From NCBI GenBank assembly GCA_021798745.1, contig JAJZBW010000004.1, positions 1 through 34,542 of the forward strand: a DNA stretch of 34,542 nucleotides, read 5' to 3'. The DNA comes from Actinomycetes bacterium (GTDB lineage Bacteria; Actinomycetota; Acidimicrobiia; Acidimicrobiales; Bog-793). Below are positions 554-34,542 of the stretch, one piece after another. How positions within the stretch are numbered: position 1 is the stretch's first letter; each line of letters opens with the position of its first letter. A model generated the notes under the pieces. The model made no database searches, was not told the DNA's origin, and saw only the letters and a program-made list of their open reading frames with translations. The position numbers were made by a program, and so were the translations under genes.

Positions 554-5441
<4,888 letters not shown>

Positions 5442-11485: not shown

Positions 11486-11542
11486 GTTGCCTCACGTCAA
11501 ATCCTCCGGGAACGATGATTCGTTGCCTCACGTAAAAGCTCC
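11486..11542. repeat. Left IS end: two direct copies of the terminal motif
   Basis: The outer copy (11486-11507) and inner copy (11522-11542) share GTTGCCTCACGT and a terminal CTCC, spaced 36 bases start to start. They face inward and are probably transposase-binding sites. The transposase stop codon (11497-11499) lies inside the outer copy, so both copies overlap coding sequence. Confidence 0.8.
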
Positions 11543-12747
11543 GGACGATCCGTCTTCACGAAGGCGCGGTTGACGGCCCGCTGCGGTGCGGCGGTCTTCG
11601 CGAGCGCGAGGCGTTCGAGCTGGCCACAGAGCCGGGCGATCTCTCGTTGCAGCTCGCCCGGGTGGAGGCCGTTGCGGCTCCGGGTGAGGGCGGCGCGCTT
11701 CGCCGGGCTGAGCACCCCGGAGGCGAGCACCCGCTCGTAGGGCGTCTTTGCGGCGTCGTGGCGCTTGAGGACCTTCGCGCCGACCCGGGTGCGGCTGACG
11801 AGCTTCTGCTGCGCGAGGAGCAGGTTCGTGAACCGGCCGTCGAGCGCGAAGATCCTGTTCAAGAGCGCGAGCTCGGCCGGGCTGTCGAAGCGCAGGTAGC
11901 CGACGAGCTCGCGGACGTGGGTCCAGTTCTTCTGCTCGACGTACGCGCCGTCGTTCTTGTTGCCGGGGCGGCTCCTCGTGAAGGTGATCTTCTTCGCGAC
12001 GCAGTAGTCGAAGAGGTCGGCGTTGATGAACTCCGAGCCGTTGTCCGAGTCGATGCCGAGGATGGGGAAGGGGAAGTGCTCCGACGCGTGGTCGATCGCG
12101 GCGAGGACGTGGACGGCCGCCTTGTTCGGGACCGAGCGGTTCACCGTCCAGCCGGTCGCGACGTCGGTCATCGTGAGGGTGAAGCAGAGCTCGCCGAAGC
12201 TGTTGCCACCCTCGTGGCCGACGAGGTCGATCTCCACGAACCCGGGGACGGCTTCGTCCCACTCCGACCAGGTGCGGATCGGGATCTGAGACTTGAGGAG
12301 CGAGCCGGGCTTGGTGTGGCTCCGGCCCCGGAACTGCGCGAGGACCTTCGCGCCCTGGAGCCGGCGGTCGATCGTCGCCGCGCTCATCCTCACGAGCAGC
12401 TCGGCCTCGTCGTCGCTGAGCTCGAGCTCGCCGTCACGGCGGAGCAGCGGGACGAGGACGGCGAGCATCGGCGCGAGGCGCTTGCCGGCCGGGGCCCGGG
12501 CGACCCGCCAGCACAGCTCGAGGGCGGAGACGACTCGGGTCGAGTACACGGGCGTACGCGCGCTGCGCACCGACACGACGCGCAGCTCGCCGGCGTCGCG
12601 CAGCTTCGCCCTCGCGTAGTCCCGGTGCCAGCCGGTGAGCTCGACGAGCTGGTCGAGGAGCGCGCTCTTCTCCGACCGGGACCCGCGCCGATACGCCGCG
12701 GCCATCTTGTTCGTGACCGCGCGTCGCTCGCCCATCGAAAGCTCCAT
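11497..12747 (-). CDS. IS transposase, integrase-core DD35E type
   Basis: A 416 aa transposase. The N-terminus (about 10-60) is an HTH-like DNA-binding part ([18 protein letters not shown] ... [12 protein letters not shown]). The retroviral-integrase-type core has Asp174 ([12 protein letters not shown]), Asp235 ([10 protein letters not shown]) and Glu271 ([10 protein letters not shown]), with exactly 35 residues between the second Asp and Glu. All three catalytic residues are present and there is no frameshift, so the enzyme may be active. The ATG at 12747 is taken as start; an internal ATG five codons on is possible. The last 14 codons run through the left terminal repeats. Proteins of this type are common in actinobacteria and often labelled 'integrase'. 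Confidence 0.9.
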
Positions 12748-24030: not shown

Positions 24031-24102
24031 GCCCCCGTAGCTCAGGGGATAGAGCACCGGCCTCCGGAGCCGGGGGCGCAGGTTCGAATCCTGCCGGGGG
24101 CA
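24031..24102 (+). tRNA. tRNA-Arg (anticodon CCG)
   Basis: A full cloverleaf can be drawn: acceptor GCCCCCG paired with CGGGGGC, D stem GCTC/GAGC, anticodon stem CCGGC/GCCGG with loop CTCCGGA, T stem GCAGG/CCTGC with loop TTCGAAT, and discriminator A. The anticodon CCG reads the CGG arginine codon. CCA is not encoded. The 3' half abuts a serine recombinase operon whose reading frame runs into the tRNA from the other strand, so this tRNA looks like the integration site of a mobile element; the tRNA itself is intact. Confidence 0.96.
24070..24102. other. Probable attachment site (tRNA 3' end)
   Basis: The 3' part of the tRNA-Arg gene is the likely left junction of the element, because the recombinase operon begins immediately beyond it and the tRNA remains whole. 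A second copy of this segment, expected at the right end, is not in the window. The exact core cannot be set from one end. Confidence 0.5.
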
Positions 24103-24118
24103 CGGACCAGTCCTCCGC

Positions 24119-24156
24119 GCGCACCTGGGCGCCTGCCGCGCACCTGGGCGCCTGCC
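24119..24156. repeat. Perfect 19-bp tandem duplication
   Basis: The unit GCGCACCTGGGCGCCTGCC occurs twice head-to-tail (24119-24137 and 24138-24156). Because 19 is not a multiple of three, it changes the reading frame of the last part of the recombinase. Removing one unit would lead the frame into a different readout of the tRNA (VPPAGFEPA type). Confidence 0.9.
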
Positions 24157-25842
24157 AGCGCATCGTCAGCGCGATCGTAGAGCGTGACTGTGACATCGAC
24201 GGCGCTGTCGGCCGGTTGGAACACGATGTCGAGCTGCAGCGCGTCGAACAGGGCCCGTAGTTCGCGCTGTGGCGCCGTGTCGAGCGAGCTGGCGAGGATC
24301 GGCAGCCGGTCGAGCAGCGGGGCGACGTCGGCCAACGTGGGCGCCTCTGTCGCCGACTCCCGGGCGAGTGCCACCAGTCGCTCGCGCTGCTCGGCGATGG
24401 CGTCCTCCAGCTCGGCCACGCGCTGACCGACACGACGGCGGAGCGCGGACGTGACGTCGTCAGCTTCGAGGTTGACGAGCTGGCGGGTGAGGCGCCGTTC
24501 GAGGTCGGCGATCTCGGCCTCGACCTCCGTGGCGCGTTCCTTCGTTGGCGCGGCGTGCTCAGGCTCGGCCGCGGCATCGAGGCAGGTCCGCCAGTAGCCG
24601 GTGCGCTCGGTACCGAAGAGCGCGGTGGCGAGGAACGGCAGGAGCGCGGCGTTGAGGCGCTCCTCGTTCAGGTACACGTGCGGAGGGTGGCCAGCAGGGA
24701 TGTCCTTCGCTCGTTGGTGCGAGGGTTGGCACGAGTAGTAGGTGGTCCGGCGTCGGTGGTTCCCCCACATGCGCAGCCCGCAGATCGCGCAGCGAAGGAG
24801 CCCGCGGTAGCGGTAGTCACGCTTCGCGGAGGGTCGGGCGACGGTGGCGGGCACGGCCTGGCGCGAACGCTCGTTGCCCCGGGCGCGCGCCTGCACCGCG
24901 TCGTACTCCTCCCGGCTGACGATGGCCGGGTGCGCGGGCTCTTCCGACCAGATCCAGGTCTCCGGCGGGTTGGTGCGGTTGTGGCCCTTCTTGCGGGCCC
25001 TGCGGTTCCAGACCTGGTAACCGGTGTACTTGGGGTTCCTGAGCACCTCCCAGACGCTTGAGCGGCTCCACGCACCTCGGCCGTCGCCGGAGAGACCGGG
25101 ACCGGCGGCGGGTAGCGGTCCGGGTCGGCGTTGAGGCGGTCGCGGATCTGGAGCAGACCCACCCCGCCGCTCAGGTACCAGTCGTAGATGGCTCGCACGA
25201 CCGGCGCGCGCACGGGGTCCAGCTCCAAGGTGCGCTTGTTGATGCCGCGGCTCGCCTTGTGGGGGTTCGGGTGGTCGTGAGTGACGAAGCGGTAGCCGTA
25301 GAGGGCGACGCCGCCGGTGTGCCAGCCCTGGCGGGTCGAGGTCTCCTGGCCCTGGCGGGACTTGACCATCAGCTCGTGGTGGTAGCCCCGAGCGATGCCG
25401 ATGTTCACGTGGCGGAGCACGATGGTGCCGAAGGACTCCTCGAGCGGCTCGTCCGCCGCGCACAGCCGCACGCGGGTTTGGCGCAGCTCGTCTTCGACGC
25501 GGAAGGCGACCGAGGAGTTGCGCGAGAGGCGCGAGATCGACTCCACGATCACCCGGTCGAACCGGGCCGGTCGGCGGGCTGCGTCGGCGAGGAGGTCCTG
25601 GAGACCGCCATCGCGCGGGATCGCGATGTCGAATCCAGCCAGGCCGCCCGAGCCGCGGGCGTTGTACGCCCGGGTGCCGGACTCGATGTCGTAGTAGTGG
25701 GCGACGATCCGCCCGCCGGCCTCTTCCACCTGGCGCTCGGCGTTGGCCAGCTGGCGGGGGAAGCTGAGGGTGGGGTCCTGCTCGTCCTCGGTCGAGACCC
25801 TCCCGTACCAGGCATAACGAGGTGCTGGACCGGTGGGCGTGG

Positions 25843-26064
25843 TCATGGCGAGACCTCCTCGCCCTGTCCTACCTCCACCTTGCCGCGGGATGCGAGCAGG
25901 GCCGCCAGCGCCCGCCCCTGGGCGACCGCCAGTGCCCGGCCGGCCTGGCCGCTGATCAGGTGGACCTGGCAGCGGGCACCCAGGGTCGCGCCGCTGTGGT
26001 CGGGCTCGGCTGCCTCTGGCGAACGGCGGGAGCGGGACTCGGCGACCAGGGGTCGCGCCGTCAT
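25843..26064 (-). CDS. Small protein of unknown function
   Basis: A 73 aa reading frame fitted exactly between two genes: its ATG overlaps the stop of the replication-relaxation gene (ATGA at 26061-26064) and its stop overlaps the recombinase ATG (ATGA at 25843-25846). The product is basic at the N-terminus (ARPLVAESRSRRSPE) and Ala/Gly/Leu-rich later, with no membrane segment or zinc motif. I do not recognise a family. The double overlap argues that it is translated, at least as a coupling peptide for the recombinase. Confidence 0.6.
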   Translation of the reverse strand: MTARPLVAESRSRRSPEAAEPDHSGATLGARCQVHLISGQAGRALAVAQGRALAALLASRGKVEVGQGEEVSP

Positions 26065-26891
26065 CGGGTGGAGCCCGCTGTCGCCCTCGCGAGCTGAGCG
26101 AGACGACGGCGCGGGATCTCCGCTTCCACCGGAAGCCAGATGGCGTCGGCCGGGTTGCCCGATCCGGCGACCGCCGTCTCCACCGGGAGCGTGGTGGTGC
26201 CGAGCGCTTTGCGTAGCCCCGGCTCGCGGCCAGCCTGGGCGAGCCAGAAGAGGACCGGCCGGGCGACGCCGTCGGCCTCGGCCAGGTCGCGGTAGCCGCC
26301 GAGCTCGGAGGCGACCCGGCCGAGCGGCTCACTCCCGGTGTCGTGCTCCACGAAGAACTCGGCGCGCTGGCCGTCATCCTCCCAGATCCAGTACGCGTCG
26401 GGCCGGACCAGCTCGCCCCACTCTGCGGCGCAGCGTGGCTCGGACCACCAGGCGACGAGCGCCGCGTCGGAGCGCTCACGGGCAGCCCTGTGCAGCGAGC
26501 AGAAGAAGCCGTCCACCCCGAGCGTGTGGGTCGTCCACTGACCGGCGGCCAGTGCCACCACCCGGTCGCGCAGCACCGAGGACCGCGGGACGTCCACGCC
26601 GCGCTCGGCGGCAACGAGGGCGGCGCCGAGGGGTCCGAGCGTGTAGCGCCAGGACTCCGAGCCCGTAGGTCGCAGCGGGCGGAAGCGGTCGAGGACGCCC
26701 AGGCGATAGAGGGCGACCAGGCGGTGCTGGGTGGAGACGAGGCTGGTGAAGCACAGGTCGCGGACCTGTTCGGTCGTGAGCACCCGGTGCTCCCACAGGA
26801 CCCGGCAGAGGAAGCGGTCGCGCCTGGTGAGACGGCCGAAGACGTCGAGCGCAGAGACGCCGCCCCGCCGAGGAGAAGAAGCGATGGTCAT
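26061..26891 (-). CDS. Replication-relaxation family protein
   Basis: The 276 aa protein starts with a winged-helix-like part: RRDRFLCRVLWEHRVLTTEQVRDLCF and STQHRLVALYRLGVLDRFRPL (about 23-72). A middle segment (AAGQWTTHTLGVDGFFCSL) is followed by 'LVRPDAYWIWEDDGQRAEFFVEHDTGSEP', with acidic residues in the style of a nuclease-like fold. This order matches the replication-relaxation family found on actinobacterial plasmids and integrative elements, whose proposed roles are plasmid replication or DNA nicking control. The molecular function is not established. ATGA overlaps join it to the ATPase upstream and the 73 aa gene downstream. Confidence 0.8.
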   Translation of the reverse strand: MTIASSPRRGGVSALDVFGRLTRRDRFLCRVLWEHRVLTTEQVRDLCFTSLVSTQHRLVALYRLGVLDRFRPLRPTGSESWRYTLGPLGAALVAAERGVDVPRSSVLRDRVVALAAGQWTTHTLGVDGFFCSLHRAARERSDAALVAWWSEPRCAAEWGELVRPDAYWIWEDDGQRAEFFVEHDTGSEPLGRVASELGGYRDLAEADGVARPVLFWLAQAGREPGLRKALGTTTLPVETAVAGSGNPADAIWLPVEAEIPRRRLAQLARATAGSTR

Positions 26892-28342
26892 GGATTGCTC
26901 CAGGAGTCGGGGTCCTCGGACGCCGGGGTGGGGAGCGCCTTGCGCTGGCGGTTCTCGCGGGGAGGCGTCGGCGTCTCAAGGACGCCGGCGGAGACGCCGG
27001 GAGAGACGCCGGACGAGACGCCCTCCGTGACGCCGGCCGGGCCGCCGTCGGTCTTGGTGCGATGACGGCGACGTCGGACGAGGAGGTCGTGGCGCCGATC
27101 GGCCTGGCTGCGCCCGGCGTTCTTCCGTGCGTGCTCCCGTGCCTCGGCAGCGCGTCCGGGCACGGCAGGCGGCATCGGCCGGGTCCGGAGCGTGAAGGCG
27201 TGAAGGTCGCGGCCTCCGACGACGAGGCGACAGGCGACCTGGTAGGCGTCGAGGTGGCTGAGGTCGTATGCCGTGAGGTACGGCTCGGTGTGGCGGGCGA
27301 GCACCCGGGCATCCTCGGGGGAGACCGAGAAGTAGACCTTGTTGCGGGCGTTCGCCGAGGCCGCTTCGAAGAGATCCTTCGGCAGCTGTCCGAGGTGCTG
27401 GTGGGCCAAGACGACCGAGAGGTGGTAGCCGCGCGCCTCGGCCAAGACGTCGTCGACGGCGGTCGGCGGCGCCAGGAAGTTCTGGCACTCGTCGACGTAC
27501 AACGTGGCGTCGGGGCGGGCCACATCGTCGGCCCGGGCGGTCGCCGCCTGCCAGACCGAGGCGACGAGAAGCGCCCCCACGAGCCGGGCGGTGTCCTCGC
27601 CCAAGGTGCCCTTGGGGAGCCGGGCCAAGAGCATCCCGCCCGAGAGGACCGCCTTCACATCGAAGCTGGAGCGGGCCGAGCCGAAGAGGTCCCGGGCGAA
27701 GCGCCGGGCCAACACGGCGCGCAGCTTGTTCATGATCGGCCCGATCGCCTGGGCCTGGCCGGCCGGGGAGAGGGCGTCGTAGCCGTCCCAGAATCCCTTG
27801 AGCTCCGAGCGCTCCGGCAGCGTGGCGACGAGCGGCGCCCGGAAGCGCCGGTCCGTGAGCAGCACCGGGATGTCGGCGAGCGTGGCGCCGGGCAGGCGCC
27901 GCAGGGTGGCGCACGCCGAGCGCAGGACGTCGTCGGTCCGCGGGCCCCACCAGGCCGCGAAGATCCGGGCGAATACCGAGACCACATGGTCCACGGCGAC
28001 CTCGGCGGGCTCGCCGCCCAGCACGTTCAACGCCGGCGGGGCCTCGGTCTCCTTCGGGTCGATCAGAACCACGCGGCCGAGGGACTGCTCGGGGAGCCGG
28101 GCGAGGAGGTCGTCCACGAGGTCACCCTTCGGGTCGATCACGACGACCCCGCGTCCGGCCGCCATGTCGGCGAGCGCCAGGTTGGCGAGGAGGGTCGACT
28201 TGCCCGACCCGGTGGCCCCGACCACGTGGGCGTGGTAGCGGCCGTCTTCCACCCCGAGCGCGACGGCGCGCCGGGGCCCGACCTCACTCTCGCCGATCAC
28301 TCGCACCCCGGAAAGCGGGCCGGAGCCGTCAGACCGCCGCAT
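26888..28342 (-). CDS. VirD4/TraG-like ATPase (conjugative coupling protein family)
   Basis: The 484 aa P-loop ATPase has Walker A GATGSGKST at 42-50, IDPKGDLVDDLL at about 69-80, Walker B LYVDECQNFL at about 281-290, and the downstream ARGYHLSVVLAHQHLGQLP sensor strand, an arrangement shared by VirD4/TraD/TraG and HerA-like DNA pumps. It has no membrane helices of its own. Family members usually carry an N-terminal membrane region; here that role may be played by the separate gene just upstream. The C-terminus is basic, then Gly/Val/Ser-rich with repeated GVS-type units. ATG at 28342 has GGAGG eight bases upstream; the open frame extends upstream but without similarity. Confidence 0.85.
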   Translation of the reverse strand: MRRSDGSGPLSGVRVIGESEVGPRRAVALGVEDGRYHAHVVGATGSGKSTLLANLALADMAAGRGVVVIDPKGDLVDDLLARLPEQSLGRVVLIDPKETEAPPALNVLGGEPAEVAVDHVVSVFARIFAAWWGPRTDDVLRSACATLRRLPGATLADIPVLLTDRRFRAPLVATLPERSELKGFWDGYDALSPAGQAQAIGPIMNKLRAVLARRFARDLFGSARSSFDVKAVLSGGMLLARLPKGTLGEDTARLVGALLVASVWQAATARADDVARPDATLYVDECQNFLAPPTAVDDVLAEARGYHLSVVLAHQHLGQLPKDLFEAASANARNKVYFSVSPEDARVLARHTEPYLTAYDLSHLDAYQVACRLVVGGRDLHAFTLRTRPMPPAVPGRAAEAREHARKNAGRSQADRRHDLLVRRRRHRTKTDGGPAGVTEGVSSGVSPGVSAGVLETPTPPRENRQRKALPTPASEDPDSWSNP

Positions 28343-29523
28343 CGTCGTCCTCCGAGCTTGCGACGCGAGCCGCTTGGACCGCTGCGAGGACTTCCGCCGG
28401 TGGCGCCACCGCTGCCGCACGCGCCTGGCGAAGTCCTGGCGCCTGCCCGTCGACCGGCAGGTGCACGAGCGCGGCAACTTCGGAGAGCCCGAGCACCTCG
28501 CCACTGCCGAGCACCCGGCGCTCGATGCGCCGCCGGCATCCCGGCTGCCGCCGAACGACGAGATGGTTGCGTCCCGCGTAGACGCCGAACGCGGCGGACA
28601 GCTCCCCGCGCACGCGCTCGCAGCCGTCGGCGCGCATGGCGGCCGCGCCCCGAGCTGGAGAGCCCGAAGCGGACCGCCACCTCGAAAGCGGGCAGGTCGC
28701 TCGCCTTTGCCACGGCGTGGCGCACGTCAGCCGAGCGCATCGGGTCGTGAGGCAACGGTCGGGCCGGGGCGCTGCGCCAGGCGGCGAGCAGACGGGGCAG
28801 GAGGGCCATTGGTCGGCCGGTCTGAAGCGACCGTGCCGCTCGTGTGAGCATCCGGATGGAGCGACCCGTCGCAGGGCGGACGGCGACTTGGACGACGGCC
28901 CGCTCGGTCCCGCCCCAGTCGGGGAGCGCCCCGAGCACGGTGCGCAGCGGATCGACCACGTGGTCGGTGCCGAGAGGGAGCCACACGGGTGCGCCGAGGC
29001 GCAGCTCCCCGACCGCGGCGACCGGGCCGAGCAGGCCCTGCACCTCGGCGTCGCGCACCTGGCACTGCGCGCCCGGCCAGGCCGAGGAGACCGCCCGGGC
29101 CACGGCGTGCACGGAAACACCGGAAGACACCCAGAAGCGCAGGCCGAGACCGTGAGCAGCGGTCTCGATCTCGAAGGCGACATGTCCGGGACGACCGAGG
29201 CGCCGGCCGGTCCCGGAGAGCACCGCGTGCAGGTTGCGCCAGAAGCCGAGCGCAGCCTTCGCCTCGACGGCAGCCGGCATGGCCACCTCGACGAGCTGGC
29301 CGCCAGCGGGCGCACGGAGGCGAGCCAGCAGTCTGACGAGCGCGGCCAGGACGACGAGCGCCACGAGCACGCCGAGGATCGGCATGGCCACCGGCGGGAC
29401 AGCTCGGGCAAGGTGGACCGCGTCGTGGCCGAGGTGGTGCCACCAGGCGCCGGGGTGGGTGAGGAACCGGGTGAGGGGGCTGTTGGGGACGCTCGGTGGG
29501 GGTGCGGTGGGGACAGGGGGCAT
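28329..29523 (-). pseudogene. Membrane-anchored partner of the VirD4-like ATPase, frameshifted
   Basis: ATG 29523 with GGAGGAAG upstream. One membrane helix (about 46-64, MPILGVLVALVVLAALV) is followed by a soluble domain: EVAMPAAVEAKAALGFWRNL, HVAFEIETAAHGLGLRFWV, then 'AVARAVSSAWPGAQCQV'. This looks to me like the N-terminal part found in front of some TraG/VirD4 ATPases. Around 28630-28665 the plausible protein changes frame: upstream it ends VAVRFGLSSSG, downstream it continues RGAAAMRADGCERVRGELSAAFGVY to the stop at 28329, overlapping the ATPase start by 14 bases. Without the shift the first frame stops at 28297 in Arg-rich nonsense. The family name is uncertain. Confidence 0.65.
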
Positions 29524-29586: not shown

Positions 29587-29614
29587 TCTATAGAACAGGG
29601 GGGTCTCGCGCCAA
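29587..29614 (-). promoter_or_regulatory. Promoter of the mobile-element operon
   Basis: On the minus strand TTGGCG (29609-29614) and TATAGA (29587-29592) are spaced 16 bases. The predicted start near 29579 lies about 56 bases before the ATG at 29523. The -10 sits in a palindrome TCTATAGA (29587-29594), so the same bases could act as a -10 for the opposite strand. Confidence 0.55.
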
Positions 29615-29669
29615 CGTCCGAGAAGGCGTCCGGATTCGAGACAGAAGAAGTCGATAACCTGGTGGAACG

Positions 29670-30035
29670 ATGAGCGCCTACGTGACCAGGTCTCGGGCCG
29701 CCGACGAGTTGGAGCACGCGGGCCGCGCCATCGAAGCCGCCCTCGCCCGGGGCCAGGCGGCCCGGCTCGCCCCTCACCGAGCCGCGCTCATCGAGTCGCT
29801 GTGCGCCATGCGCCGCGACACCGAGCTGGCACTCCACCAGGCCGTCTATGAGGCCAACGAGGACGGCTGCTCGTGGCGGCTGCTCGCCAAGTTCACCGAC
29901 ATGTCGTGGCAGACCCTCCACCGCCGCTACCGGGGCCGGCCCACCAGGATGCGACCACCGGCCGAGAAGGACACCTGGCTTCGCAGTCGACGGCGGCGTG
30001 AGCGGTTCACACTGTCGGTCGGCGACGACTGGTAG
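29670..30035 (+). CDS. Small HTH-like protein
   Basis: A 121 aa protein. The first half is a long amphipathic helical region (about 8-65, rich in Ala, Arg and Glu). It is followed by EDGCSWRLLAKFTDMSWQTLHRRYRG (about 65-90), which reads as a helix-turn-helix with the recognition helix starting at SWQTLHRRY. The tail is basic. ATG at 29670 has GGTGG a few bases upstream. It is transcribed away from the recombination operon and towards hsdM, with 160 bases before hsdM. I infer a DNA-binding regulator of one or both neighbours; no named family is recognised. Confidence 0.65.
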   Translation: MSAYVTRSRAADELEHAGRAIEAALARGQAARLAPHRAALIESLCAMRRDTELALHQAVYEANEDGCSWRLLAKFTDMSWQTLHRRYRGRPTRMRPPAEKDTWLRSRRRRERFTLSVGDDW

Positions 30036-30195: not shown

Positions 30196-32190
30196 ATGGC
30201 CGAGAGCAGGATCAACAACCACGCCGCGTTCATCTGGTCCGTCGCCGATCTGCTCCGCGGTGACTACAAGCAGTCCGAGTACGGCAAGGTCATCCTGCCG
30301 CTCACGGTGCTGCGCCGCCTCGACTGCGTGCTGGAACCGACCAAGGCGGCCGTCCTCGCCCGGGCGGCGAAGCTGCGTGGCCAGGTCGACAACGTCGAGC
30401 CGGTGCTCTGCGCCGTGGCTGGGCAGCGCTTCTACAACACCTCGCCGCTCGACCTCCCCCGTCTCCTCGACGACCCCGCCCAGGTGGCGGGAAACCTGCG
30501 GGCCTACATCGCCGGTTTCAGCTCCGGGGCCCGGGAGGTCCTCGACAAGTTCGACTTCGACGCCCAGATCACCCGTCTGGCCCGGGCCGACCTGCTCTAC
30601 CTGGTGCTCTCCCGCTTCGCCGAGGTCGAACTGCACCCCGACGCTGTGTCGAACATCGAGATGGGCTACCTCTACGAGGAGCTCGTGCGGCGCTTCTCCG
30701 AGCTCTCGAACGAGACCGCGGGCGAGCACTTCACCCCCCGAGAGGTCATCCGGCTCATGGTGAACCTGCTGTTCGCCACCGACGACGACATCCTGACCGA
30801 CGCAGGCGTCATCAAGACCCTCTACGACCCGGCTTGTGGGACCGGCGGGATGCTCTCGGTGGCAGAAGACCACCTGCGCATCCTCAACCCGAGCGCCCGG
30901 CTCGAGGTGTTCGGCCAGGAGCTCAACGACGAGACCTACGCCATCTGCCGCTCCGACATGATGCTGAAGGGCCAGGACGCCAGCCACATCGTGGCGGGGA
31001 ACTCCTTCAGCGACGACGGCCACAAGGCGGGGCGCTTCGACTACATGCTCGCCAACCCCCCCTTCGGGGTGGAGTGGAAGAAGGTCGAAGAGACCGTCCG
31101 CGCCGAGCACGAGACCCGTGGCTTCGCCTGCCGTTTCGGGGCCGGGCTGCCCCGGATCAACGACGGCAGCTTCTTGTTCCTCCAGCACATGCTCTCCAAG
31201 ATGAAGCCACCCGAGGAAGGCGGCAGCCGCCTTGCCATCGTCTTCAACGGATCGCCGCTGTTCTCAGGGGCCGCCGGATCTGGCGAGTCCGAGATCCGCC
31301 GCTGGATCATCGAGAACGACTGGCTCGAAGCCATCGTTGCGCTTCCCGACCAGCTCTTCTACAACACCGGCATCTCCACCTACTTCTGGGTGCTCACCAA
31401 CCGAAAGCGCCCCGAGCGCCGGGGCAAGGTACAGCTCATCGACGCCCGCGAGCTGTGGGTGAAGATGCGCAAATCCCTCGGGGACAAGCGCAAGGAGATC
31501 TCAGCCGACCAGATTGCGGAGATCACCCGCCTCTACGCCGACTTCACCGAGGGCGAGCGAGTCAAGATCTTGCCCAACGAGTCGTTCGGATTCCAGCGCA
31601 TCACCGTCGAGCGCCCGCTCCGGCTCCGCTGGGAGGTCACCGCCGAGACCGCCGAACGCCTCGCCGCCACCAAACAGTGGGCCAAGCTCGCCGCCGACCA
31701 GCGGCGCGAGCTCACCGCCAGACTTACCGAGCTGGTCGGCATCTCGACCACCGAACGCTCCGTCATGGCGACCAAGCTCGGAACACTCCCCAAGGCGATC
31801 GAGAAGCAGGTCTGGGACGCGCTCGCCACCAGCGACCCTGAAGCGCCCGTCGTCACCAACCGCAAGGGCGAGCCCGAAGCGGACCCCGACCTGCGTGACA
31901 ACGAGAACGTCACCCTGCCGTCCATACCGGTCACCTGGGCAGCGGATCCCACCGAACGCCTGGCAAGCATCGAGTACCGAAGCGTCGTCGAGGACTACCT
32001 GGCCGAAGAGGTGCTGCCGTACGTCCCTGACGTCTGGGTCGACCGCACAAAGACCAAGATCGGCTACGAGATCCCCCTCACCCGTTACTTCTACAAGTAC
32101 GTCCCACCACGTCCCCTTGCCGAGATCGACGCCGAGATCAAGGCCCTCGAAGCGGAGATCCAAGAGCTGCTGCGCGAGGTGACGGAGTGA
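30196..32190 (+). CDS. hsdM: Type I restriction-modification methyltransferase subunit
   Basis: N6-adenine methyltransferase subunit of a type I system, working with HsdS to protect host DNA and with HsdR to cut. The 664 aa protein has the N-terminal HsdM helical domain (about 1-150, AAFIWSVADLLRGDYKQSEYG), HFTPREVIRLMVNLL, SAM motif DPACGTGG at 211-218, and catalytic NPPF at 287-290. The C-terminal coiled coil (IDAEIKALEAEIQELLREV) contacts HsdS. At 664 aa it exceeds E. coli HsdM (about 529) owing to extra sequence after about residue 450. ATG at 30196 has GGAGGG 12 bases upstream. The stop overlaps hsdS (GTGA). Confidence 0.95.
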   Translation: MAESRINNHAAFIWSVADLLRGDYKQSEYGKVILPLTVLRRLDCVLEPTKAAVLARAAKLRGQVDNVEPVLCAVAGQRFYNTSPLDLPRLLDDPAQVAGNLRAYIAGFSSGAREVLDKFDFDAQITRLARADLLYLVLSRFAEVELHPDAVSNIEMGYLYEELVRRFSELSNETAGEHFTPREVIRLMVNLLFATDDDILTDAGVIKTLYDPACGTGGMLSVAEDHLRILNPSARLEVFGQELNDETYAICRSDMMLKGQDASHIVAGNSFSDDGHKAGRFDYMLANPPFGVEWKKVEETVRAEHETRGFACRFGAGLPRINDGSFLFLQHMLSKMKPPEEGGSRLAIVFNGSPLFSGAAGSGESEIRRWIIENDWLEAIVALPDQLFYNTGISTYFWVLTNRKRPERRGKVQLIDARELWVKMRKSLGDKRKEISADQIAEITRLYADFTEGERVKILPNESFGFQRITVERPLRLRWEVTAETAERLAATKQWAKLAADQRRELTARLTELVGISTTERSVMATKLGTLPKAIEKQVWDALATSDPEAPVVTNRKGEPEADPDLRDNENVTLPSIPVTWAADPTERLASIEYRSVVEDYLAEEVLPYVPDVWVDRTKTKIGYEIPLTRYFYKYVPPRPLAEIDAEIKALEAEIQELLREVTE

Positions 32191-33449
32191 GCACCTTCAG
32201 AAAAGCGCAGCTTCGCCGAATCTTCCGAGTCGTCAATGGTGGTACTCCCAACTCCGAGCCCAGCAATTGGGATGGTGATGTCCCGTGGGCGACGCCAGTA
32301 GATGTCGGCATCTTCAACGGAGGGATCATTCACGGAACCGGACGATCGCTTTCTGAGGCCGGGCTCGCGTCAGGGAGTTCTGCTGTTCCGAGCGGGTCGC
32401 TGATCCTCTCCACGAGGGCACCGATTGGCTATGTAGCGCAAGTCTCGGAACGAACGGCCTTCAATCAGGGTTGCCGCGGTCTCGTCTCGACCGAAGAACT
32501 CGACGTGCGGTATTTTCGATACCAACTTCTGGCGATGAGTGAGGTGCTACATAGCCGTGGGCAGGGGTCGACGTTTCAAGAATTGTCATCAGATGGTCTA
32601 GCCGGAAGCTCGATCTTCATTCCACGGCCGGCCGAGCAGCGCGCCATCGCCGACTACCTTGATCGGGAGACCGCCCGTATTGACGCGCTCATCGAGAAGA
32701 AGCAACACTTGCTGGGCCTGCTCGACGAGCGACGCATGGCCGTAACGGCGGATAGTGTCTCTGGGCGTTTTACCAGCAACCGGCTTGTGCCTAGCACGCT
32801 GTTATGGCTGCCATGGCGTGGTGCGAATTGGCGCGAAACCAAGCTCACGCTCGTCGCTCGCCTCGGCAGCGGCCATACCCCAAGTCGTGATCACCGGGAA
32901 TGGTGGGAAGAGTGCAAGATCCCATGGGTCACGACGGGAGAGGTCGCACAGCTGCGGTCGGATCGCGTCGAGTTTCTCTACGACACCCGTGAAAAAATCA
33001 GCGAGCTGGGGGTCGCAAACTCGTCGGCCGAGGTACACCCGAAGGACACTGTCGTTCTTTGTCGAACGGCGTCAGCAGGGTATTCGGGAATCATGGGCAC
33101 CGCGATGGCGACGAGTCAGGACTTCGCGACGTGGACCTGTGGGCCTCTCATCCGTCCTCGGTTCCTGCTCCTCTGCCTGAGAGCCATGCGCCAGGATCTT
33201 CTCGGCCGCCTGGCGATGGGGTCCACTCACCAGACCATCTACATGCCGGACATCGAAGCGCTCAGAGTGCCGCTCCCGGAGGTCAACGAACAAGATGCGA
33301 TCGTCGATGCGGTATGGGTCCGCCTTCACAAGATCGACGCGGCGATCGATGGCTTGCATCGTCAGATCGACTTGCTCGGTGAGCACCGCCACGCACTGAT
33401 CACGGCGGCCGTCACCGGCGACATGGAGATGCCGGGGGTGGCGGCGTGA
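32187..33449 (+). CDS. hsdS: Type I restriction-modification specificity subunit
   Basis: DNA-recognition subunit, 420 aa, with the usual two half-site domains. The first target-recognition domain (about 1-150: FRVVNGGTPNSEPSNWDGDVPWATP) is followed by a conserved helix (EQRAIADYLDRETARIDALIEKK). The second domain (about 206-370: LVARLGSGHTPSRDHREWWEECKIPWVT) is followed by NEQDAIVDAVWVRLHKIDAAI. Each domain should read one half of a bipartite target; the target cannot be deduced. Base composition is clearly less GC-rich than hsdM and hsdR, and codons with A/T in third position are frequent, as expected for a frequently exchanged gene. GTG at 32187 overlaps hsdM; the stop overlaps hsdR. Confidence 0.94.
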   Translation: MSTFRKAQLRRIFRVVNGGTPNSEPSNWDGDVPWATPVDVGIFNGGIIHGTGRSLSEAGLASGSSAVPSGSLILSTRAPIGYVAQVSERTAFNQGCRGLVSTEELDVRYFRYQLLAMSEVLHSRGQGSTFQELSSDGLAGSSIFIPRPAEQRAIADYLDRETARIDALIEKKQHLLGLLDERRMAVTADSVSGRFTSNRLVPSTLLWLPWRGANWRETKLTLVARLGSGHTPSRDHREWWEECKIPWVTTGEVAQLRSDRVEFLYDTREKISELGVANSSAEVHPKDTVVLCRTASAGYSGIMGTAMATSQDFATWTCGPLIRPRFLLLCLRAMRQDLLGRLAMGSTHQTIYMPDIEALRVPLPEVNEQDAIVDAVWVRLHKIDAAIDGLHRQIDLLGEHRHALITAAVTGDMEMPGVAA

Positions 33450-34542
33450 AAGTCGACGAGCGGGGCTTCGAGGATGCCATCGAGGCAGCGCTGCTGGCTG
33501 GCGGCTACCTCCGGTCCGTTCCTTCGAACTTCGATCCGGTGTTGGGACTCGACACGGCGGAGCTGTTCGCGTTCATCGGCGCGACGCAGATCAGCGAGTG
33601 GGAGAGGCTGCTCGGTCGCTACGGGAACGACCCCGATGCCGCCCAGCGAGGCTTTGCCAAGCGCCTCGCCGCGGAGCTCGATGCCCGGGGCACCGTGGAG
33701 GTGCTCCGCCAGGGGGTGGTGGACCTCGGGGTGATGATCCGCCTGGCGTTCTTCCGGCCGGCCCACGGCCTCACTCCCGAGCTGCAGGAGCTGTATGCGG
33801 CGAACCGGGTGAGCGTGACGCGCCAGCTCGCCTACGAGCCGAGCTCGACCAAGACGCTCGACGTGGTGCTGTTGGTGAACGGCATCCCGACGGCCACCGC
33901 CGAGCTGAAGAACCCGCTCACGAACCAGGACGTCGAGCACGCCATCGGTCAGTACCGTCGGGACCGGGACCCGGCCAACGTCACCCTGGCCCGCCGAGCG
34001 CTCGTCCACTTCGCTGTCGACCCTGACCGGGTGGCGATGACGACGAAGCTGGCTGGCCAGGCCACGCAGTTCCTGCCGTTCAACCGTGGGCACGCCGGAG
34101 GGGCCGGTAATCCACCCGAGGCGGCAACCCACCGCACTTCATACTTGTGGGAGCGGGTGTGGGCGCGTGACGCCTGGATGGATCTCCTCGCCCGCTTCAT
34201 CCATGTCGAGCGGCCGACACAGGGGGCCCCGGCTGCCCGTCGGGCGGCCGAGCGCGTCGTCTTCCCTCGCTTTCACCAGTGGGACGCCGTGCTGGCCCTC
34301 GAAGCCCACGCCCGGGCGCACGGGGCCGGGCACAGCTACCTGGTGGAGCACTCGGCAGGCTCGGGGAAGTCGAACACGATCGCCTGGACGGCGCACCGGC
34401 TCTCCTCACTCCACGACGTCAAAGACGGCAAGGTCTTCGACAAGGTGGTCGTGATCACCGACCGGGTGGTCCTCGACCGCCAGCTCCAAGACACGATCTA
34501 CCAGTTCGAGCACACCCGGGGCGTGGTGGTGAAGATCGACAA
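33446..34542 (+). CDS. hsdR: Type I restriction endonuclease subunit R, partial (3' end outside window)
   Basis: Motor and nuclease subunit of the type I enzyme. The GTG at 33446 overlaps the hsdS stop (GTGA), and the frame is open to the window end (365 codons). The N-terminal nuclease domain shows the PD-(D/E)xK core: Asp139 in TLDVVLLVNG and Glu153-x-Lys155 in ATAELKNPLT, followed by AIGQYRRDRDP. The helicase part begins with YLVEHSAGSGKSNTIAW (Walker A at 302-309) and VVVITDRVVLDRQL (motif Ia). No frameshift is seen. Typical HsdR is about 1000 aa, so roughly two thirds lies to the right. Confidence 0.94.
   Translation, partial: MKVDERGFEDAIEAALLAGGYLRSVPSNFDPVLGLDTAELFAFIGATQISEWERLLGRYGNDPDAAQRGFAKRLAAELDARGTVEVLRQGVVDLGVMIRLAFFRPAHGLTPELQELYAANRVSVTRQLAYEPSSTKTLDVVLLVNGIPTATAELKNPLTNQDVEHAIGQYRRDRDPANVTLARRALVHFAVDPDRVAMTTKLAGQATQFLPFNRGHAGGAGNPPEAATHRTSYLWERVWARDAWMDLLARFIHVERPTQGAPAARRAAERVVFPRFHQWDAVLALEAHARAHGAGHSYLVEHSAGSGKSNTIAWTAHRLSSLHDVKDGKVFDKVVVITDRVVLDRQLQDTIYQFEHTRGVVVKID

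Follow-up and report, generated by a model that had tools for sequence, protein, structure and literature searches.

Class 8 of the streptococcal integrative and mobilizable elements (IMEs) unites a VirD4 coupling protein, a MobC relaxase (PF13814) and a serine integrase in one compact block (PMC5357655). This combination is known from two streptococcal IMEs, and the pairing of relaxase and coupling protein from CloDF13-type plasmids (PMC5704250, PMC7434980); IMEs with their own relaxase and coupling protein are thought to replace the coupling protein of their helper (PMC5704250; PMC7434980). Here we describe a related locus in a stretch of DNA of 34,542 bp (the window), which is the complete contig C275 of the draft genome G000 (2.8 Mb, 85% complete), whose nearest relatives are metagenome-assembled 'Actinomycetes' and Acidimicrobiales. 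The genome was itself drafted from a metagenome, and single-base differences may be assembly errors. Very probably, an IME some 14.6 kb long has its left end in the window; its VirD4, MobC and serine integrase genes are adjacent in a compact block, as in class 8. An earlier reading of these letters (the sequence-only reading) had held that no mechanism was worked out for such a set, which was too strong, since the trio has been described in streptococci and the pair on CloDF13.

Like the window, streptococcal class 8 (PMC5357655; IME_SsalCCHSS3_ND, PMC5704250) combines VirD4, PF13814/MobC and a serine integrase and has no mating channel. The window element differs in being actinobacterial, in having its coupling protein in two genes, in carrying type I restriction cargo and in its target, the 3' end of tRNA-Arg, whereas serine-recombinase IMEs are described in a review as disrupting genes. 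In the case of CloDF13 MobB/MobC (MOBC1 plasmids; PMC7434980, PMC7431656), the system is likewise mobilizable, with its own coupling protein and MOBC relaxase and a foreign channel, but it is a Gram-negative plasmid and its one-piece coupling protein has its own membrane domain. For a wider comparison, the alignment of the coupling ATPase was scanned over 84,980 species genomes, yielding 267 relatives, and 80 loci were kept and fetched (L numbers denote fetched loci, G numbers genomes and C numbers contigs). Most of L031-L100 are actinobacterial integrative and conjugative elements (ICEs) of the type IV secretion system (T4SS) type; they likewise contain homologues of VirD4 and PF13814, paired and identically ordered, and they differ by their PrgI, VirB4, pilin, TrbL-like and NlpC/P60 genes and by a fused coupling protein. 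The left end of the window element comprises the following features.

24031..24103, plus strand: tRNA-Arg (CCG), the integration target, with its 3' end forming the host half of attL (ARAGORN).
24093..24116, plus strand: attL, with the core GCCGGGGGCACGGACC (24093-24108) and, continuing from it, the arm CCAGTCCTCC on the element side (24107-24116) (core match in C133).
24042..25846, minus strand: large serine recombinase (PF00239, PF07508 and PF13408), frameshifted (domain matches).
25843..26064, minus strand: small conserved protein of 73 aa (conserved in 8 loci).
26061..26891, minus strand: MOBC-class relaxase candidate (PF13814) of 276 aa, with a winged helix-turn-helix (HTH) and an alpha/beta domain and PD and ExD motifs (profile match).
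26888..28342, minus strand: VirD4/TraG-type coupling ATPase without a membrane region (domain matches, homologues).
28329..29523, minus strand: separate membrane/N-terminal subunit of the coupling protein, frameshifted (hydrophobic segment, homologues).

Open reading frames (ORFs) and domain matches bear out the order given by the sequence-only reading on the minus strand, namely membrane gene, ATPase, Replic_Relax protein, 73-aa protein and serine recombinase. The ATGA overlaps that it reported are present at 25843, 26061 and 26888, but the junction of the membrane gene and the ATPase is instead a 14-nt ATG-N8-TGA overlap.

The second att site, whose search had been proposed, is found on contig C133 of the same genome, where the core GCCGGGGGCACGGACC at positions 3013-3028 is preceded by the arm GGAGGACTGG. 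The two ends have 16 bp in common, the core occurs once in each of the two contigs, and the arms GGAGGACTGG and CCAGTCCTCC are mirror images, both on the element side. The predicted attP consists of the GGAGGACTGG arm, the core GCCGGGGGC and the CCAGTCCTCC arm. Contig C133 contains the 3' part of hsdR (2-776), a gene for a 261-aa protein, two PIN-domain genes and then attR, beyond which lie host LysR and molybdopterin oxidoreductase genes. The size of the element thus amounts to 10,450 bp on C275, about 1,120 bp of missing hsdR and 3,028 bp on C133. In G006, a genome of the same genus (L124), the tRNA lies at the same place beside lysA without the element. Synteny with G006 had suggested contig C67, with the rib operon, as the right flank; no element sequence is present on C67, and the flank is C133.

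The same element ends delimit L024, L028, L046 and L047. Two of these, L046 and L047, come from two different metagenome genomes and occupy two different sites, and they are 99.87% identical over 9,302 bp, with the similarity ending abruptly at the att core. Elements in the window, L024, L025, L143 and L145 all have tRNA-Arg as their target, and those in L049 and L050 have tRNA-Leu. Insertion at tRNA genes by serine recombinases, which has been called rare (PMC3218068), is recurrent here. Just inside attL, in the region coding for the recombinase C-terminus, there are two perfect tandem copies of CGCGCACCTGGGCGCCTGC (24118-24155), where the aligned relatives have a gap.

The 276-aa protein matches PF13814 with an E value of 1.5e-42 and 146 bits (cut-off 25.3), and this family is listed as a MobC relaxase domain (PMC5357655). 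The replication-relaxation protein of the sequence-only reading, which saw no relaxase, is therefore a MOBC relaxase candidate that would nick DNA. MOBC relaxases are related to PD-(D/E)XK enzymes and resemble restriction nucleases, TraX having an N-terminal winged HTH (PMC12857230). Compared by description, TraX of pAD1, the MOBC prototype, has the same succession of a winged HTH and a PD-(D/E)XK-like nuclease (PMC12857230), although, unlike the window relaxase, it is encoded on a conjugative plasmid. The AlphaFold model of the candidate is confident (pLDDT 91, pTM 0.87) and combines a winged HTH with an alpha/beta domain, where PD stands just before one strand and ExD closes the next. Across 50 homologues, P164, D165, E182, D184 and R222 are invariant. 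The motif and the family support a nuclease fold. Of the 80 ATPase loci, 76 contain a PF13814-type homologue, which normally follows the ATPase gene directly downstream; three of the other four loci end at a contig edge and one (L023) truly has none. The gene set, whose co-occurrence in other genomes was to be checked, does recur in related loci. Directly outside attL of L028 lies a second PF13814 gene (L028:14556-15416, E 1.9e-43), with a further PF13814 fragment about 16 kb away on the same contig (G003:C222:32544); both are left over from elements that were stacked or came earlier.

In the ATPase, a Walker A motif is accompanied by weak but above-cut-off matches to PF10412 and PF02534 and by a match to FtsK below the cut-off; a strong transmembrane stretch is lacking. 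The separate gene upstream encodes one strong hydrophobic segment near residues 45-67. The sequence-only reading had noted this division of labour, and the split is conserved in 13 related loci. In the tree, the 13 rows with the split form (window included) make up one fully supported clade with no VirB4 nearby, the upstream sequence being short in 7 of the 13. At the junction, GGAGG precedes the 14-nt overlap, an arrangement kept in L021, L024, L028, L022 and L046. As relatives keep both this junction and its ribosome site, the split is not a sequencing artefact. The membrane partner is homologous to the N-terminal half of the fused relative and therefore arose by gene fission, which is real and, in the tree, of single origin. 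The frameshift within the membrane gene, a +1 change at 28599-28619 owing to an extra G in a G run as compared with L021, is an event separate from the split and may be an artefact. Intact homologues of this gene occur elsewhere; its own stop lies at 28329, the listed ORF end at 28297 being in the wrong frame.

A soluble ATPase with a separately encoded membrane partner is also known from pIP501 (TraJ with TraI; PMC7434980), from which the window differs in that the partner has about 400 aa and corresponds to the N-terminal half of the fused relative. The model of a fused homologue resembles TrwB over the ATPase part (Foldseek TM-score ~0.6 by target length) and aligns along its whole length to TrwK/VirB4 with low TM-scores. 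The window pair has a TrwB-like nucleotide-binding domain, and the membrane domain typical of VirD4 proteins comes from the separate gene, disrupted in this copy. In a second, divergent module of G000 (C2, L017), membrane part and ATPase form one protein of 859 aa. Its region (G000:C2, 98-5913) comprises the fused coupling protein, PF13814, a small ORF and a serine recombinase with its start out of frame. The second lineage without a channel, to which C2, L049, L050 and L051 belong, kept the fused form, with ample upstream sequence in L049 only.

The fused-form gene is accompanied by VirB4 in 56 of the 80 loci, typically in the order T4SS pilin (PF18895), TrbL-like protein, PrgI, VirB4, VirD4, PF13814 and an SLT+NlpC/P60 enzyme, and by their gene content these are full conjugation operons. 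Since homologous VirD4 and relaxase pairs lie inside such complete operons, the window element appears to be a stripped, helper-dependent cousin of this actinobacterial ICE family. The same kinship could be taken to mean that the window begins an intact, self-transmissible ICE, or an actinomycete ICE (AICE), with channel genes further right, as a VirD4 and relaxase pair is typical of the complete ICEs among the relatives. However, attR lies about 14.6 kb away with only hsdR, the 261-aa gene and the two PIN genes between, and the right part, in which a full conjugation operon would, by the sequence-only reading, have meant an ordinary ICE, holds hsdM, hsdS and the start of hsdR instead. The check for VirB4 proposed by that reading gave neither VirB4 nor any other T4SS gene on the sequenced parts of the element (about 1.1 kb of hsdR being uncovered), and no VirB4 in the four relatives with both ends read. 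Nor is an AICE apparent, as the ATPase is VirD4-like and the sequenced parts contain no FtsK/SpoIIIE-type TraB or replication initiator. With attR found and T4SS genes lacking from the sequenced parts, a complete ICE is rejected and must be regarded as extremely improbable. Searches of other sources gave 26 plasmid records, three covering most of the query protein, one weak match in viral contigs, and only distant matches in phages.

We consider an IME the best reading because of the PF13814 relaxase, the two att ends, the near-identical copies at two sites and the kinship with ICE modules; gene content, ends, copies and common ancestry are established at the level of sequence. The element has its own recombinase (frameshifted here), delimited attL and attR, and its own relaxase with no mating channel on the sequenced parts. 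The suggestion of a minimal DNA-transfer or mobilisation unit is thus well supported by att sites, relaxase, lack of VirB4 and co-occurrence. In an intact copy, the serine recombinase would excise the element by recombination of attL with attR, perhaps with the 73-aa protein. The MOBC relaxase would then nick oriT (the origin of transfer) of the circular form, and the coupling protein, of the VirD4 type and made of two subunits, would bring the relaxosome to the mating channel of a helper. The helper would most plausibly be an ICE of the same family, for whose own coupling protein that of the element would stand in, and the DNA would re-integrate at the 3' end of tRNA-Arg, where the cargo restriction genes might protect or addict the host. 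As to the helper, ICE-type VirB4 is present in 6 of 12 IME-bearing genomes, as against 4 of the 148 genomes sampled across the order (Fisher p 8e-6), which is suggestive of an ICE helper, and G001 carries both an IME (L021) and an ICE (L041).

Several points weigh against this reading. Nicking, transfer, use of a helper, the excision role of the 73-aa protein and oriT are deduced. A Foldseek search of the PDB with the relaxase model gave only winged-HTH matches and no nuclease-domain match among the matches listed, so that the fold search lends no support to the nuclease fold. The frameshifts in the recombinase and membrane genes could be mutations or assembly errors. The two contigs C275 and C133 are separated by an unsequenced part of hsdR, about 1.1 kb, and are joined by homology to L028 and by the att match. 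The co-occurrence statistic was obtained from drafts of related sources and ignores phylogeny and source, and the other 6 of the 12 IME-bearing drafts, as well as the window's own draft, have no ICE-type VirB4. The only VirB4-like gene in G000 is a distant one (34%), located where C116 ends. The genes there (G000:C116:73157-77263, L125:10840-14946) comprise a DUF6112 gene, one that matches EccE below the threshold and, at the contig end, the VirB4-like ATPase; they belong to a different type IV secretion system of the host genome.

A further proposal concerns how such an IME came about. An ICE may have given rise to the element by losing its channel, while its coupling protein was divided between a soluble motor of the VirD4 type and a separate membrane subunit, possibly with a VirB4-like N-terminal fold, and the split pair could displace the coupling protein of sibling ICEs as an exchangeable module; we put this forward tentatively, as a scenario that is on balance doubtful.

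The state of the window copy is a separate matter. The recombinase gene has a -1 frameshift at about 25075-25095, with one base fewer than in four relatives, and its last codons are host tRNA sequence; intact homologues exist in L024, L143 and L142. Together with the membrane-gene frameshift, this points to a dead remnant, a decayed fossil with restriction genes in which the module has no function, while the family may still move. In the same direction, K196 of the relaxase is kept in 49 of the 50 homologues and is Glu in the window alone (codon GAG, 26304-26306; AAG in L021), and the DUF6414 gene of L028 was lost from the window copy. On the other hand, open frames remain for the relaxase, the ATPase, the 73-aa protein, hsdM and hsdS, and the single-base differences may be errors of a draft metagenome assembly. 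We regard decay of this copy as somewhat favoured; it concerns this copy alone and is compatible with the IME explanation, and to judge from the sequence it has probably lost the ability to move on its own. Unbroken copies are present in other genomes. In the case of the 73-aa gene, its position is that of the excisionase gene in streptococcal IMEs (PMC5357655), and the protein may for this reason be an excision-directionality factor.

To the right of the coupling genes lie the remaining features of the window element.

29591..29644, minus strand: conserved non-coding block of 54 nt, TGTCTCG...GACCCCCCTGTTCT, upstream of the coupling genes (conserved in the split clade).
29670..30035, plus strand: divergent 121-aa protein, C-terminal half HTH-like by eye (homologues in split-clade loci).
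30196..32190, plus strand: cargo hsdM (PF02384/PF12161; PADLOC MTase_I, E 5.7e-276).
32187..33449, plus strand: cargo hsdS (PF01420; PADLOC Specificity_I).
33446..34540, plus strand: start of cargo hsdR, cut by the contig end, with its 3' part on G000:C133:2-776.

The block at 29591-29644 is conserved throughout the split clade, and L049 has the same end motifs at the same spacing; it may be a candidate oriT or operator. The 121-aa protein has no Pfam match; its homologues occur in loci of the split clade, with a weak one also in L049, and it is possibly a regulator or relaxosome accessory protein. The identified cargo consists of the type I restriction system and the two PIN-domain genes. This neighbourhood bears on the idea of the sequence-only reading that the ATPase might serve replication or defence. 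A defence system would here consist of a HerA/VirD4-like ATPase acting against phage with a PF13814 nuclease. The ATPase does match PADLOC mad8 (E 1.2e-19) and, weakly, HerA models, and restriction genes are its neighbours, but PADLOC gave no match for the relaxase, the membrane subunit, the 73-aa protein or the recombinase. The pair's homologues are mostly in type IV secretion operons, and in the complete relatives of the element the pair adjoins the recombinase and att sites. As the PADLOC matches are to ATPase models only, the genomic context is that of conjugation and the defence genes are separate cargo, a defence role is rejected as very unlikely, and a role in replication is likewise disfavoured by the close homologues in complete secretion operons. 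Near related elements there are AbiEi/AbiEii pairs (L049:2115-3583, L130:159-1642), and in L128 type I restriction genes are accompanied by an OLD-like nuclease and an M78/DUF4411 pair.

What is new here is an actinobacterial family with defined ends, a gene fission of single origin and repeated targeting of tRNA-Arg by serine recombinases. An earlier survey found many relaxases and surprisingly few conjugation systems in actinobacteria (PMC3158045), another searched MOBF relaxases only (PMC3218068), and a 2017 review gave a single actinobacterial IME of the canonical kind (PMC5704250). In the present comparison, full type IV secretion operons go with a PF13814 relaxase in many actinobacterial genera, and acidimicrobial-type genomes contain derived, channel-less elements with defined ends. 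These elements provide natural material for studying the replacement of a helper's coupling protein by that of a mobilizable element, and the question of how such a protein can be divided in two and still be tolerated. Among the housekeeping genes of the contig, a transposase-like gene with an rve domain (PF00665) lies at 11497-12747 on the minus strand.

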